Source of the DNA: a virus
Virus record (IMG/VR): IMGVR_UViG_3300020020_000096
Span: 1 to 40,246 of that record
DNA length: 40,246 nucleotides
Direction: 5' to 3' (one strand)
The position numbers and the translations under genes were made by a program. Numbering within the stretch: the stretch's first letter is position 1; each line of letters opens with the position of its first letter. Positions 4,416 to 40,246 of this stretch are shown one piece after another. Under the pieces are notes generated by a model. That model saw only the letters and a program-made list of their open reading frames with translations. It was not told the DNA's origin and did no database searches.

Positions 4416-6795
4416 CGGGGCCTCCTTCCATCGGAGGGGTTGGGGGTTGCTGGGCCTGCTGATTCTGGATCTGTTGGACCTTGGCCTGGAGGCCCATCGC
4501 GGCGGTTTCCCGCGCCGCGTCCGCTTTGATTCCGGTAGTCTGCAAAGCGGTATCGCGGCGCGAATCCTCCTGGTAGAGGGCCGTTTCCTGCTGGCGGGCG
4601 CCTTGGGAATCCTGCTGTTGTTGCTGGGCGGCGCGGGCCGCTTGCGCTTCCTGGAATTGGGAGGCCATCCGGTCGCGCTCCAGGTTTGCCTGGATCGTCG
4701 CGATATCCACCTCGGCGCCGTATTTCAATTCCAGTTCGCGGGCCTTCAGCAGAATGTTCGATTCGTTGAGGTCACGCTCCCTATCATTCTTTAAGAGCAT
4801 GTCCTGTTTCTTCAGGTCGAGTTCCGCCGCTTTCATCTGGATATCGGCCTTGATGGAATCGGCCTGGACCTGGGCGAGGATCATCGCCGATTTTTCCTCG
4901 GGGGTCGGCTCTTTCGGCTGCGGCGGGGGCGGGGTCCAGTCCGCCGGCACCTTATTTAAGAACATGCCAGGATCGACAAAACCGGCCATCTCGACCAGCT
5001 TGGCGAGGGTGGTGCGGTACTGGGAGACGGTGACGAGAGGGTTTTGGGGGCCGTAGATCTGGAGTATCTGCTCCTGCTTGGAGGCGATCAGCTGCAGGGC
5101 CTGCTTGCGCTCTTCCAAGGTGGAAGAGCCAACGGCCACGTTGATCGCCACATCGGTATCGGCGTTCCACTCGGACGGATTGACGGGGACCCAGGTGTTT
5201 CTGAGTTTGATGACGCGCTCTTTTTCCTGGTGCCGGCAGGCGAGTCCGAGAAGGCCCCGCATCATTCTCTTAAGGCCCGTCTCGGCGAAGATCCTGGCGA
5301 TCAGTTCGATATGCTGATGGGCGCCGTTGACCGTCGCCGCGACGGCTGCCTTTGTTGTTGACTGCAGGGCGTCGGCATCGAGGCCCGCGGCGGCGCGGGA
5401 GATGCCGGTCCGGTCCTCTTTCACCCTGTCCCAATAATTCAACATGGGTTCGGCTTCCCGGCCCAGGTAGGGAGTGACCAGGGGCTGGCACATCCCCGGC
5501 GCACGCATGCGGATGGGTCCGCCCGTCTCATTATTTAAGACGTCGGCGATATTGACCTGGCCTTCGACAATGGCCATCCGCGGGACGATGGCCTGCGCCA
5601 GCGAGTCGAGGGATTTCCGGAGGATCGATGATTTCACCCGCTGGACGTCCATCACCTGGTCCGCAATAGAATTGCCGAAGAGAGTATGCGGCGTCGGATT
5701 CGGGCAGAAGTTCGCGAAGGGCCGCTCGGTCGCCGGCTCATTGGCGACGATCTCATAGTCCGGGCCGATGCAGCAGATCTTCCGCATCTCGGCGATGCCG
5801 TCCCCATCGTAGTCCACCCGGACGTACACCTCGGTGTAAAGAACCGGACGAGTCGCCTCGTCGGAGGACTCATCGACTAAAGAGTTGGCGCCGGGGAGAC
5901 GCTGGACCGCCTCTTCCGAGTGCGAAGTGAATTCATGCAGGCCGGCGGATTCCAGGACATCGTCCCACTTGTAGCCGAGTGCCACCAGATCAGAGACGGT
6001 CAGGTAACGGCGATGCCCCACCAGGCGGGCCGAGTCCAGGCACTTCGCGGTGCGGTTGCACAAGAACTCTTCCGGCGGGATAGCGGCGATACGGATCCGC
6101 CCGGAGGCATTGGCGCGGCGGGTGATGACGATGTTGAGGGTGCCGTCCGGATTCTCGGAAACATTGGTGCGGGTGTTTTCGTCGAGTTGCTTGGCGTCCG
6201 TAATGAGCATCGCCGATGTTTCTATGGGGAGATCCTCATACTCATCGGTCACCATTTCCGCGGACGTGTCCCACCACCACGTCACCACGCCCTGGCTGCG
6301 GATCAGTGCGTCTAAGAAGGCGCTATGGAGGATCAGGAAACCGGGATTATCGACGCGAATGACAAAGTTGATAAAATCCGTCATCTGCTCTGCGACAGGC
6401 ACATCATTGGGAGTTCGCGGTATGAACTCCGCGATATTCTCCGGACCCAGGAACATCCTTATTATTGAGGGGAGAATGGCGTGGACCGTATCATGCACAT
6501 CCCTGGAGACGACTTTGGACCGGCCCTCCTCCTCATCCCCGAAGGGTTCCCCGTCGTAGTAGTTTGTGGCAAGGCGGCGGGGTTCGGCCAGGTCGGAGAT
6601 GACCTGCTCGGCTTCCTCGATCTCATCGCGGACGATGCGCTGCAGTTCATCGTCATCGAGCGGGACCGGGCCGTTGGGGTCCGGAGGTTGTTCCACGGGC
6701 GCGCCGCCCCCCGGCACCTCACTCTCGGGATGATATTCGGGGGGTACGGCGGCGCGTGGAAAGGCATCAGAACCGGAATCGTGGTAGCGATTCAT
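4399..6795 (-). CDS. portal protein (SU10-type)
   Basis: This 798-aa protein forms the ring through which DNA enters the head. Recognisable segments are DDELQRIVRDEIEEAEQ near residue 50, YYDGEPFGDEEEGRSKVVSR near 78, the central HTLFGNSIADQVMDVQR segment and the DRTGISRAAAGLDADALQ segment, all typical of long podovirus portals. The last about 170 residues are a Gln/Ala-rich coiled coil, often seen in SU10-type portals. I start at 6795 because the region upstream carries a TACCCT box 8 bases before the ATG and a CATGACGTCATG element, which together look like a promoter for a nearly leaderless mRNA. No Shine-Dalgarno site precedes the start. The divergent partner is the gene at 6878. Confidence 0.9.
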   Translation of the reverse strand: MNRYHDSGSDAFPRAAVPPEYHPESEVPGGGAPVEQPPDPNGPVPLDDDELQRIVRDEIEEAEQVISDLAEPRRLATNYYDGEPFGDEEEGRSKVVSRDVHDTVHAILPSIIRMFLGPENIAEFIPRTPNDVPVAEQMTDFINFVIRVDNPGFLILHSAFLDALIRSQGVVTWWWDTSAEMVTDEYEDLPIETSAMLITDAKQLDENTRTNVSENPDGTLNIVITRRANASGRIRIAAIPPEEFLCNRTAKCLDSARLVGHRRYLTVSDLVALGYKWDDVLESAGLHEFTSHSEEAVQRLPGANSLVDESSDEATRPVLYTEVYVRVDYDGDGIAEMRKICCIGPDYEIVANEPATERPFANFCPNPTPHTLFGNSIADQVMDVQRVKSSILRKSLDSLAQAIVPRMAIVEGQVNIADVLNNETGGPIRMRAPGMCQPLVTPYLGREAEPMLNYWDRVKEDRTGISRAAAGLDADALQSTTKAAVAATVNGAHQHIELIARIFAETGLKRMMRGLLGLACRHQEKERVIKLRNTWVPVNPSEWNADTDVAINVAVGSSTLEERKQALQLIASKQEQILQIYGPQNPLVTVSQYRTTLAKLVEMAGFVDPGMFLNKVPADWTPPPPQPKEPTPEEKSAMILAQVQADSIKADIQMKAAELDLKKQDMLLKNDRERDLNESNILLKARELELKYGAEVDIATIQANLERDRMASQFQEAQAARAAQQQQQDSQGARQQETALYQEDSRRDTALQTTGIKADAARETAAMGLQAKVQQIQNQQAQQPPTPPMEGGPDAGPV

Positions 6796-9677: not shown

Positions 9678-10418
9678 ATGATCCACTACCATGGCGGCCC
9701 GATCACCCCTAACTCCGCGGCAATAGGGGCGTGGCGCCGCGGGCATGCCTGCGTCTCCTTCGCCTATCCGCGCCAGATGGCATTGGCGTGCGAAGTAGCG
9801 CAGTCCGTCATGGTCGATAACGGCGCGTTCACCGCCTGGCGGATGAGGGGGGAGCAGGTGGCCGAGGTCGATTATGCGCTGTGGGTATCGGAATGGGCGA
9901 GGCATCCAGCCTTCGACTGGGCCTTAATCCCGGACGTGATCGACGGATCGGAAGGGGACAACGATGAGTTGGTTGCGCGATGGCCTTTGGCGCGGGACTT
10001 GAGCGTCCCGGTCTGGCACCTGCATGAGAGCCTGGGAAGACTGGACCGCCTTGTGGGGGGTTGGCCGCGGGTGGCCCTGGGATCCTCCGGGCATTTCGCG
10101 GTGATCGGGAACAAAGCCTGGCGGACGAGAATGGCGGATGCGATGGAGGTTTGCTGCGATAGCGGGGGGAGGCCCAAGGCAAAACTCCATGGGCTGCGCA
10201 TGCTCAACCCCACCATCTTCTCGCAGTACCCGTTCGCGTCCTGCGACTCAACCAATGTCGCGCGAAACATCGGCATCGACAAAGCCTGGAAGGGAACCTA
10301 TATCCCGCGGACACGGGAGATGCGGGCGATGATCCTTACAGAGAGGATAGAGTTGCATTGCTCCGCAGCCCGCTGGAATGGCCGGACGGGTGGGATGAAC
10401 CGGGAGTTGTTGGGGTAA
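9678..10418 (+). CDS. DpdA / tRNA-guanine transglycosylase-like protein
   Basis: This 246-aa protein resembles the phage DpdA branch of the TGT fold, whose members exchange guanine for a 7-deazaguanine in DNA. Two active-site landmarks match. DNGAF (47-51) is in the place of the TGT DSGGF substrate Asp, and CDSTNVARN (189-197) is in the place of the TGT DCxxPTRNAR nucleophile loop, giving Asp190 as nucleophile. GSSG (135-138) matches the phosphate-binding glycines. It is short compared with bacterial TGT (about 375 aa) and lacks the Cys/His zinc site. The start has a TACAAT box 16 bases upstream and no Shine-Dalgarno site. It lies on the plus strand between terL and terS. An alternative role is a tRNA-modifying or uncharacterised nucleoside enzyme. 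Confidence 0.65.
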   Translation: MIHYHGGPITPNSAAIGAWRRGHACVSFAYPRQMALACEVAQSVMVDNGAFTAWRMRGEQVAEVDYALWVSEWARHPAFDWALIPDVIDGSEGDNDELVARWPLARDLSVPVWHLHESLGRLDRLVGGWPRVALGSSGHFAVIGNKAWRTRMADAMEVCCDSGGRPKAKLHGLRMLNPTIFSQYPFASCDSTNVARNIGIDKAWKGTYIPRTREMRAMILTERIELHCSAARWNGRTGGMNRELLG

Positions 10419-12237: not shown

Positions 12238-13017
12238 ATGGACCCAACCCCACCCGCCGCCCCCGTCCAACTCTCCTTCCTCTTCTCCCCTCCGGATGCG
12301 CCTCCCTCAACCCGGACCCGGCACATCGTGGCCCTCTCCGGCGGGAAAGACTCAACCGCCATGGCCCTGGCCCTGCAAGAGAACGAGCCGCGGCCTTACG
12401 AGTACCTCTTCACCCCCACAGGGCGGGAGTTGCCCGAGATGGAGCAGCATATGCGGGACCTGGAGCTGGAACTGCTCACCCCCATCACGCGCCTGTCCAA
12501 CCGTACCCTTGACTACTGGATTGAGCATTTCCAGGCCCTCCCGAATCACCGGCAGCGATGGTGCACGCGCCTCTTGAAAATTGAGCCGGCGCTGGCGTTC
12601 ATGAAGTCCGTCAAGAACGGTGTCCTCTATGTGGGCCTTCGCTCCGACGAGCCGACCCGGGAAGGGATCTATTCCAACGACATCCGGTGTGATTTTCCGT
12701 TCAAGCGTTGGGGCTGGGGCGAACCGGAAGTCTGGTCTTTCCTCGATGCCCGCGGCATCCGGATCCCCCCGCGCACCGACTGCGACAACTGTTACGCCCA
12801 GCGCCTCTACCAGTGGGAAGACCTATACAAGAACCACCCCCTCCGATACGCCGAGATGGAGGCGCTTGAGGCCCGCATCGGCAAAACCTTCCGCAGCCCA
12901 TCCAGGGACTCCAAGCCCGCGGCCCTGGTCCAGCTTCGCGTCGAGTACTTCGACAAAGGCATCCCCATGCAGCGGCGGAAGGAGTCCGATCAGAAGTGCC
13001 GGGTCTGCAGCCTCTAA
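12238..13017 (+). CDS. PAPS-reductase-like ATP-pyrophosphatase
   Basis: This 259-aa protein belongs to the adenine-nucleotide alpha-hydrolase fold. The P-loop SGGKDST is at 34-40. The segment RQRWCTRLLKIEPALAFM around 105-122 is the usual substrate-side motif, and YVGLRSDEPTRE follows. Five Cys (109, 182, 185, 254, 257) include two CxxC pairs, suggesting a zinc or iron-sulfur site. Phage members are usually annotated as PAPS reductase family, but true sulfate reduction is unlikely here. Adenylation followed by thiolation or amidation of a nucleobase, or a defence role, is equally possible. It has no Shine-Dalgarno site and a -10 box 6 bases upstream. It follows operator-like site 3. Confidence 0.75.
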   Translation: MDPTPPAAPVQLSFLFSPPDAPPSTRTRHIVALSGGKDSTAMALALQENEPRPYEYLFTPTGRELPEMEQHMRDLELELLTPITRLSNRTLDYWIEHFQALPNHRQRWCTRLLKIEPALAFMKSVKNGVLYVGLRSDEPTREGIYSNDIRCDFPFKRWGWGEPEVWSFLDARGIRIPPRTDCDNCYAQRLYQWEDLYKNHPLRYAEMEALEARIGKTFRSPSRDSKPAALVQLRVEYFDKGIPMQRRKESDQKCRVCSL

Positions 13018-24629: not shown

Positions 24630-24845
24630 TCAAGCCACCACCGCCTTGGGGGTGGTTGGCAGGCGGTAGGACCCCGGGACCTTCCGCTGCAATCGGGACC
24701 ATTCGTCCAGGTCGTCGGTGTTGTATCTGATGGCCCTACCCATCTGGGAATAGATCGGGCCTTTCCCCAGGCTCCTCCATTTGCGCAGCGTCTTTGGGCT
24801 GAGATTGAGGTGTTCAGCCGCGCCTTGTTCGTTCAGTTGGGTCAT
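24630..24845 (-). CDS. excisionase/AlpA-like helix-turn-helix protein
   Basis: This 71-aa protein is a MerR-type small DNA binder: NEQGAAEHLNLSPKTLRKWR forms the helix-turn-helix, and GPIYSQMGRAIRYNTDDLDEW is the wing and dimer strand typical of HTH_17 and excisionase-like proteins. In plasmids this type of gene often sits next to repA. I start at 24845; a longer upstream frame runs through the non-coding region. GGAGG lies 11 bases before the ATG. A perfect inverted repeat 90 bases upstream overlaps a TACTAT box, suggesting autoregulation. Confidence 0.8.
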   Translation of the reverse strand: MTQLNEQGAAEHLNLSPKTLRKWRSLGKGPIYSQMGRAIRYNTDDLDEWSRLQRKVPGSYRLPTTPKAVVA

Positions 24846-24934: not shown

Positions 24935-24952
24935 TACCCCCATTTGGGGGTA
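24935..24952. promoter_or_regulatory. inverted repeat operator candidate
   Basis: TACCCCC and GGGGGTA flank a 4-base spacer (ATTT). The left end overlaps TACTAT, a possible -10 box (minus strand) for the helix-turn-helix gene, which suggests self-control. Confidence 0.55.
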
Positions 24953-25115: not shown

Positions 25116-25386
25116 TCGTTTCCGGTTCCGGTTTCGGGGCGGCGATGACAAATCGACCGGCGTTGTGGGATATGGTTTTTGGGGCCTGGGGCGCCTCAGG
25201 ATCATTCGGAAGGTGTTCGGACGTGCTTTGCCCACCCCCGCCCCTTCCGGCGCGTCCTGGGGCGTTTTGGCGTTCGGCGTTTTATGAGGAGGGTTTTTCC
25301 GGCTCGTTTTGCCTTCCAGCAGGGAAATCCACAACGACAGAGAAACTAGTCAGGATTCTTCGTCAGGTAGTCAGGTATAAGGAGAG

Positions 25387-25458
25387 CGTGCAGAGAAACA
25401 CGTATTACCGTGCAGAGAAACACGTATTCCTGCCAGAAAAGCGTGCAGAGAAACACGT
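25387..25458. repeat. three RepA iterons
   Basis: The 17-base unit CGTGCAGAGAAACACGT occurs exactly three times, starting at 25387, 25409 and 25442. Start spacings are 22 and 33 bases, both multiples of 11, so all copies face the same side of the helix. Each unit ends in CGTG/CACG. A degenerate copy (TGCCAGAAAAGCGT) fills the larger gap. Iterons next to repA are the hallmark of RepA-type origins. Initiation at this site is inferred. Confidence 0.85.
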
Positions 25459-25486
25459 GGAAAAGGGGCCGGATCCTCAGCCCCCT

Positions 25487-25495
25487 TGTGGAAAA
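25487..25495 (-). promoter_or_regulatory. DnaA-box-like site
   Basis: TTTTCCACA on the minus strand matches the relaxed DnaA box TTWTNCACA. A weaker copy (AAATCCACA) lies near 25325 on the plus strand. Both flank the iterons, as in many iteron origins. Confidence 0.5.
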
Positions 25496-25502
25496 CCCGG
25501 GC

Positions 25503-26381
25503 CTAGTCGCCGGCTGGCAGGGCCTGCCCGTGGGACAGGATCAGATCCATGCCGTCGTCGGAGATCCGCGCCGGACACGCCGGCCAGAACCGGACGGTCA
25601 TGGCTAGCCAGAGGTTTAGCGCCCGCCGGAAGAACCGCTCCTCCTCAACGGTCCCCAACTGATGGATCAGCCCGTTCTGCCCGTACAGGGAGATAATGGC
25701 GGACCCCGGGCAGGACCAGCATCTCCAGCAGACCCAGAGGTAGAAGTCCAGGCATCCGGGCGAGTCCGCCAGCGCCCGCACCACCCCTAAGTCGATAGGG
25801 ATGGGGTGGGCCTTGAGATCGGTCCAGAATCTGTCCGACAGAGCGACATGGTTCTCCGACTCGCCCTCCTGGTACCAGAGTTGGGCGGACTTGAACAAGT
25901 GGAACGGCTCGACGTGGAATTTCTGTGATTGGTCCCTTGGCCCGTAGTACATGGAAGTCGTACTGAGCCGCTGGAAACCCTCTACCAGCCGTTTGTATTT
26001 CCGCCCGTCCAACGCTAGCCCAAACATTTTCAGGATCTCGGCCCCGGACTTGAAGGAAATGTTCGGACTATCCTGCGCCACGGCGATTGTCGCCGCCCAG
26101 ATGAGAATCAGCCGGTCCTGCCCGAATGGCAGGCCGAAGTTGGGGTGAGCCACTAAACTCATCGCCGTGTTCCCGTTGTGCCGGGTATGGACCAGCTCCT
26201 CCGCCGGCGGACGTTTAACAGGGAGTCCGCAAAGGATGAAGTATTTGTTGCTGAAGGCAACCGGCTGCTCCTCCGTCTCCCGCAGCGCCCGCGTCCGTTC
26301 GATAGCATCCGCCCGCTTCAATTGGCGGGCGGACACCTTCTTCACCTTCAACAATTCCCCGGTGCTTGTCAGTTCAGACAT
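25503..26381 (-). CDS. repA: plasmid replication initiator RepA (RepA_C-type)
   Basis: This 292-aa protein has the pattern of plasmid-encoded RepA (RepA_C family): VAFSNKYFILCGLPVKRP, then HNGNTAMSLVAHPNFGLPFG, DRLILIWAATIAVAQDSPNI, FKSGAEILKMFGL near residues 120-140, and a winged-helix-like C-terminus. It should bind the iterons next to its 3' end and open the origin. I start at 26381, where TATCCT lies 8 bases upstream and no clear ribosome site is present; a longer upstream start is less likely. The partition pair lies upstream and the HTH gene downstream, a common plasmid backbone order. Confidence 0.85.
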   Translation of the reverse strand: MSELTSTGELLKVKKVSARQLKRADAIERTRALRETEEQPVAFSNKYFILCGLPVKRPPAEELVHTRHNGNTAMSLVAHPNFGLPFGQDRLILIWAATIAVAQDSPNISFKSGAEILKMFGLALDGRKYKRLVEGFQRLSTTSMYYGPRDQSQKFHVEPFHLFKSAQLWYQEGESENHVALSDRFWTDLKAHPIPIDLGVVRALADSPGCLDFYLWVCWRCWSCPGSAIISLYGQNGLIHQLGTVEEERFFRRALNLWLAMTVRFWPACPARISDDGMDLILSHGQALPAGD

Positions 26382-27415: not shown

Positions 27416-27429
27416 AGCCCTATAGGGCT
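27416..27429. promoter_or_regulatory. palindrome upstream of parA
   Basis: AGCCCTATAGGGCT is a perfect 14-bp palindrome 10 bases before the parA ATG. It overlaps the expected transcription start region and is a good candidate for the operator or part of the centromere bound by the RHH partner. TACATGTA lies 15 bases further upstream. Confidence 0.55.
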
Positions 27430-40114: not shown

Positions 40115-40246
40115 AAAACCTCTTTCTTTAAACGAAATTGAGATCCGCGGAACGGACCGCACCATCGGAGAAACGGCAGAAGAAGCGCAGTTGGGTAACA
40201 CTCGCCTGGGTTACGGTGAACGATTGGTTGTCCAACTTGGCCTGGT
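40115..40246. repeat. terminal direct repeat, right copy
   Basis: This repeats 1-132 with one difference (C at 40120 against G at 6). It contains the stop of the fibre gene and the ribosome site of the next gene, so removing one copy restores an uninterrupted late operon. Confidence 0.95.

Follow-up and report, generated by a model that had tools for sequence, protein, structure and literature searches.

The viral contig analysed here (IMG/VR record IMGVR_UViG_3300020020_000096; 40,246 bases, the whole of which is referred to as the window) carries at positions 25310-25505 a putative iteron-type oriV, which we read, with a probability of roughly 0.93, as the plasmid-mode origin of a phage-plasmid. 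This reading follows from a layout shared with relatives of the adjacent initiator RepA, from the presence of the same elements in plasmid pSN0729-62, and from a structural model of RepA that resembles RepE54 and RctB. As in iteron theta origins, whose direct repeats measure ~17-22 bp, helically spaced repeats are linked to a Rep gene of predicted winged-helix fold and adjoined by DnaA-like boxes. A sequence-only reading had proposed a compact candidate origin at this site, which is supported by the layout in RepA relatives and by the experimentally used PromA origin; the phage-plasmid setting, the location on the downstream side of repA, the CCTGAC repeats and the further box that is fused to an iteron had gone unseen.

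Repeats and boxes downstream of repA

The 17-base sequence CGTGCAGAGAAACACGT is present in three identical copies starting at 25387, 25409 and 25442, exactly where they had first been reported, and the match positions confirm the spacings of 22 and 33 bases, multiples of 11. These correspond to 2.1 and 3.1 turns at 10.5 bp per turn, so the earlier description of the copies as lying on the same helix face holds approximately. The copies at 25387 and 25409 are alike over nearly the whole 22-bp tandem, and the third follows after 11 extra bp. CGTGCAGAGAAACACGT is the sole 17-mer with at least three copies in the window, none of 100 dinucleotide shuffles reached three copies, and no further match with up to three mismatches was found on either strand of the window (0.06 expected). 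The perfect iterons number only three; a degenerate copy (core CAGAGAAAC, 25338-25346) lies 53 bp farther out. On the plus strand this 9-mer has four occurrences in the whole window, which fall together in 120 bp at the locus, and it has none on the minus strand.

Table 1. Features of the putative origin and the adjoining plasmid cassette (coordinates in the window).
Feature	Position	Strand	Basis or remark
Weak outward DnaA-like box AAATCCACA	25325..25333	+	Seen in sequence
Degenerate fourth iteron	25334..25350	-	6 mismatches; core GTTTCTCTG in repA sense
Three CCTGAC(T/G)A repeats	25349..25375	-	At 25370-25375, 25362-25367 and 25349-25354
Iteron 3 from repA	25387..25403	-	Exact match; 22 bp step
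Iteron 2 from repA	25409..25425	-	Exact match; 33 bp step
Iteron 1 from repA	25442..25458	-	Exact match; ACGTGTTTCTCTGCACG in repA sense; ~45 bp beyond stop codon
DnaA-box-like TTTTCCACG	25456..25464	-	Overlaps (fused to) repA-proximal iteron
DnaA-box-like TTTTCCACA	25487..25495	-	Pattern scan; between repA and iterons
repA, replication initiator, 292 aa	25503..26381	-	Pfam matches and AlphaFold model
Ribbon-helix-helix protein, 84 aa	26526..26780	-	Pfam Antitox_RHH, 1.2e-6
parA, partition ATPase, 212 aa	26767..27405	-	phrog_164, 9e-39
14-bp perfect palindrome AGCCCTATAGGGCT	27416..27429	.	Computed; ~10 bp before parA

Because repA is encoded on the minus strand, the iterons lie downstream of it, and the adjacency noted earlier is correct. 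Reading outward from the repA stop codon (25505-25503), the order is TTTTCCACA (the DnaA-box-like site that had been noticed, which is real), then TTTTCCACG together with the first iteron, the second iteron after 33 bp, the third after 22 bp, the CCTGAC repeats and, outermost in the repA orientation, the degenerate iteron followed by the weak outward box (TGTGGATTT). The GC content of 25340-25460 is 48% against 61% overall, lower but not strikingly AT-rich. The cumulative GC-skew minimum, anticipated at the repeats, lies elsewhere (~34.5-35.5 kb), and GC skew lends the site no support. Rfam and tRNA searches gave no match at the locus.

Could the repeats be regulatory only, as a terminator of repA (the repA-proximal repeat holds a CGTG-N8-CACG hairpin followed by T) or as an operator? 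One repeat does score terminator-like, but such sites occur at chance level (3 against 2.9), and termination needs no three identical copies at steps of 22 and 33; the repeats are moreover downstream of repA rather than at its promoter, with no second copy upstream of the gene. We regard this explanation as scarcely credible.

The iteron-origin reading suggests the following course, which builds on the observed iterons and their place, on the common layout, and on the family and predicted fold of RepA. RepA would bind the three iterons stacked on about one face of the DNA, assisted by DnaA at the two TTTTCCAC boxes, one of them fused to the first iteron. RepA and DnaA together might then melt the flanking, less GC-rich stretch of CCTGAC repeats, after which the host replisome would be loaded. 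Contacts between RepA and the iterons may also set the copy number. ParA and the ribbon-helix-helix protein would segregate the plasmid copies, and lytic replication would fall to the phage polymerase A and primase-helicase, with a presumed switch between the lytic and plasmid modes.

Initiator, partition genes and viral genome

RepA matches Pfam families RepA_C (PF04796, 6.7e-8) and RPA (PF10134, 7.5e-7), both above cut-off. Its AlphaFold model (mean pLDDT 86) most resembles domains 2-3 of RctB (E 1.5e-6) and the RepE54-DNA complex (E 3.8e-5), with moderate TM-scores (~0.45-0.55 by query length), such as distant relatives would be expected to give; RepA is thus predicted to be a tandem winged-helix initiator of the iteron-replicon type. 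A tblastn search matched 547 plasmid records, all below 60% identity, and among the matches listed the plasmid RepAs are ~26-30% identical over most of the protein. In 50,697 phage records the window RepA found no match at E 1e-5, and the RepAs of two other viral contigs used as queries found one 3.9-kb fragment only; this RepA type is virtually unseen in sequenced phages. Viral contigs scanned with RepA or with the primase as a single-protein query gave no match. In a quick tree the window RepA groups with acidobacterial sequences (SH-aLRT 97), the closest to it, which hints weakly at an acidobacterial host, since replication genes can move.

The plasmid cassette (parA, a small ribbon-helix-helix gene and repA, all on the minus strand) lies between the primase and tail genes. 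ParA matches NF041546 (2.9e-45) below that model's cut-off and is 66% identical to the ParA of L023, where a small protein also follows ParA. The ribbon-helix-helix protein is probably a ParB-like centromere binder, judging from its family and position, and the palindrome AGCCCTATAGGGCT is a candidate operator or parS. The L023/L024 contig (IMGVR_UViG_3300010376_000035, 68,976 bp, viral) yielded two fetched stretches that are identical on opposite strands, and its palindromic form is probably an assembly artefact. PF10134 has no match in L023/L024, a negative that weighs little because the same model also misses L025, which carries RepA. Likewise, the RPA and ParA families were found in none of 12 records of portal relatives, 10 of them ~32 kb or shorter; such family negatives on virus records are weak, most records being fragments and PF10134 insensitive.

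With ParA and the ribbon-helix-helix protein encoded in the same cassette, the repeats might instead be a centromere (parS) bound by the latter and no replication origin, and a parS with direct repeats does lie immediately downstream of repA in mycobacteriophages Miko and Rachaly (PMC7157519). In the RepA relatives, however, the layout tracks repA whether parA is near or not, the fused DnaA-like boxes and CCTG repeats suit an origin, and the palindrome before parA could serve the par system; we therefore hold a centromere to be highly improbable.

The window encodes an SU10-type major capsid protein (1.5e-92) and portal (1.3e-183), a terminase and virion structural genes, and the virus is of the short-tailed, podovirus type; its capsid protein has Sinorhizobium phiM5 and EBPR podovirus 2 among its nearest counterparts, and its portal has an 83% relative in L005. 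Its first and last 132 bases (1-132 and 40115-40246) are identical save for one mismatch, so the genome is probably complete, circular or terminally redundant, at ~40.1 kb, even if its record may be entered as linear. No integrase was found among the window proteins scanned. Virion genes and plasmid replication and partition genes are combined on one element, which is best read, from its gene content, as a phage-plasmid.

The phage also encodes its own replication genes (family A DNA polymerase, prim-pol/D5 primase-helicase, Gp2.5-like SSB, exonuclease and SNF2 helicase). These, particularly the polymerase A, primase-helicase, SSB and exonuclease, would fit a reading in which the virus uses the site for lytic replication and not as an origin of the plasmid mode. 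The site nevertheless follows RepA, a plasmid protein all but missing from sequenced phages, and the DnaA-like boxes indicate host machinery, which makes a lytic origin very unlikely. The other replication genes look lytic, and the oriV would add a plasmid mode.

Further genes of the window include a queuine tRNA-ribosyltransferase-like gene (DpdA-like, phrog_887; 9678-10418, plus strand) and a PAPS-reductase/DndC-like gene (12238-13017, plus strand), with which the phage may modify its DNA. A 71-aa HTH_17 protein (excisionase/regulator-like; 24630-24845, minus strand) starts ~660 bp from the repA stop codon, with an 18-bp hairpin TACCCCCATTTGGGGGTA (24935-24952) upstream of its gene, and is a candidate switch regulator.

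Layout shared by relatives of RepA

Genomes were scanned with a RepA profile built from a three-sequence alignment (a broader alignment was too diverged to scan with), yielding 26 loci, the closest (41-43% identity) in Acidobacteria. In 25 of 59 RepA-relative loci, repeats form an array no more than 420 bp downstream of repA; in about 10, an array is found upstream of the gene. The downstream repeats comprise 3-4 units of a sequence wholly unlike the window iteron. Steps of 33/22 as in the window recur in L038, L048 and plasmid pW9NP1, and other relatives show 34/33 (L037, L042), 33/32 (L045), 56/22 (L030), 34/22 (L028) and 22/35/22 (L044); 19 of 22 steps deviate by at most 1 bp from a multiple of 11 (binomial p 1.2e-8, uncorrected for kinship). 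The position of the repA-proximal iteron and its fused box are likewise common to relatives, the first repeat being fused to TTTTCCACG or TTATCCACG in L030, L037, L038, L042 and L045, and similarly in pSN0729-62. CCTG octamers occur in all 11 origins compared (23 in total, where shuffles give 0.9), a contrast somewhat flattered because these origins were picked for showing an array or octamer. The CCTGAC repeats of the window hold the same place as the CCTGTAGT(TA) repeats of relatives, which they match only in part, and by analogy are probably a melting-side element. Inverted boxes comparable to AAATCCACA are found in L030, L038 and L048.

The link between array and repA is not universal, since five of the closest RepAs (L031-L035, 40-43% identity) have no array beside repA. 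Conservation of the iterons, which the sequence-only reading had looked to, failed at the level of letters, the layout alone being common: the iteron sequence was not found in the viral contigs, the fetched loci or 396 acidobacterial-phylum genomes, and no paired iteron cores occur in the same 396 genomes. The single paired-core match in the viral contigs, L027, was discarded, as it proved to be a coding repeat (KAEKQ) unaccompanied by a RepA. A DNA-level plasmid search with the repA-ori segment gave no match, and a literature search on CCTGTAGTTA found nothing relevant.

Two other viral contigs bear on arrangement in this family. L028 (IMGVR_UViG_3300038457_000126, ~4846-5150) is classed as viral and carries a family RepA with downstream iterons; it is either a phage or a misclassified plasmid. 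In L025 (IMGVR_UViG_3300012802_000002, 4763-6678), where RepA is followed by ParA, iterons and an inverted copy lie upstream of repA, an alternative arrangement in the same RepA family.

Locating a plasmid-mode origin in an uncultured podovirus supports a temperate, extrachromosomal lifestyle. More broadly, though at somewhat under even odds, a SU10/phiM5-like podovirus lineage infecting Acidobacteria may persist as plasmids by means of a broad-host-range plasmid-type RepA origin. The layout of this origin (box-iteron fusion, steps in multiples of 11 bp, CCTG repeats) would be kept across bacterial phyla while the letters are free, so that every element would have an incompatibility of its own. 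From the comparison also comes a simple origin grammar, with freely changing iterons, for a RepA family that spans several bacterial phyla. This rule can be tested and can guide the search for origins in plasmids and phage-plasmids from metagenomes; provided that the host hint is right, the repA-oriV segment could perhaps become a starting replicon for Acidobacteria.

Comparison with known plasmids and phage-plasmids

The PromA oriV (pSN0729-62, pMOL98, pSFA231) resembles that of the window in having a RepA relative and 17-bp iterons (PMC9499019, PMC4290620), a box-iteron fusion (TTATCCACG), 22-bp steps and, beyond the iterons, CCTGTA repeats. A mini-plasmid made of repA and oriV from pSN0729-62 replicates in both E. 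coli and P. putida (PMC9499019); in pSN0729-62, TTATCCACG is fused to the first 17-bp iteron, the steps are 69/22/22/22 and CCTGTA repeats follow. PromA differs in that kilobases separate its oriV from repA (in pSFA231 it is 5.1 kb downstream, against 45 bp in the window), its iteron CGCTGAAACTGTCTTGC is unlike that of the window, and its members are conjugative or mobilizable plasmids, not viruses. In pSN1216-29, mini-plasmids showed that the region downstream of repA with four iterons is required for replication, and iterons, DnaA boxes and an AT-rich region lie directly downstream of repA (PMC6232296); the published 15-bp iterons, CCGTC(T/C)(A/T)TTACCCAC, are unlike those of the window, and this plasmid too is conjugative. 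The window iteron matching neither group's sequence, the window origin would work like these replicons but is not, on its sequence, a member of either plasmid group.

The Polaromonas plasmid pW9NP1 (L087) has three iterons after repA at steps of 33 and 22, as in the window, with a TTATCCACG box and CCTGTA repeats, but its iteron core is ATTAACGGTCGCG and the plasmid is 7.2 kb. Of four further plasmids retrieved alongside, pPRO2 shows an array (33/33) and CCTGTA repeats, and three have no array beside repA. Among RepAs accompanied by a visible array, the closest (43% identity), in the acidobacterial Bryobacterales MAG contig L030/L056, shares the TTTTCCACG-iteron fusion, a 22 step (steps 56 and 22) and CCTG repeats, with an iteron, TTATTGTTGTCGCG, unlike that of the window; no SU10-portal match was found in that genome, where the search controls were silent too.

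The phage-plasmids P1, Miko and Rachaly are temperate phages kept as plasmids with RepA and partition genes (PMC7157519), as the window virus would be. In Miko and Rachaly no repeat motifs at repA were identified as an origin, and these phage-plasmids have different virions. The iteron-origin layout itself is already known from bacterial plasmids, and only the repeat letters appear to be the virus's own; less ordinary are the podovirus-type phage-plasmid setting and a conserved layout filled with free iteron letters.
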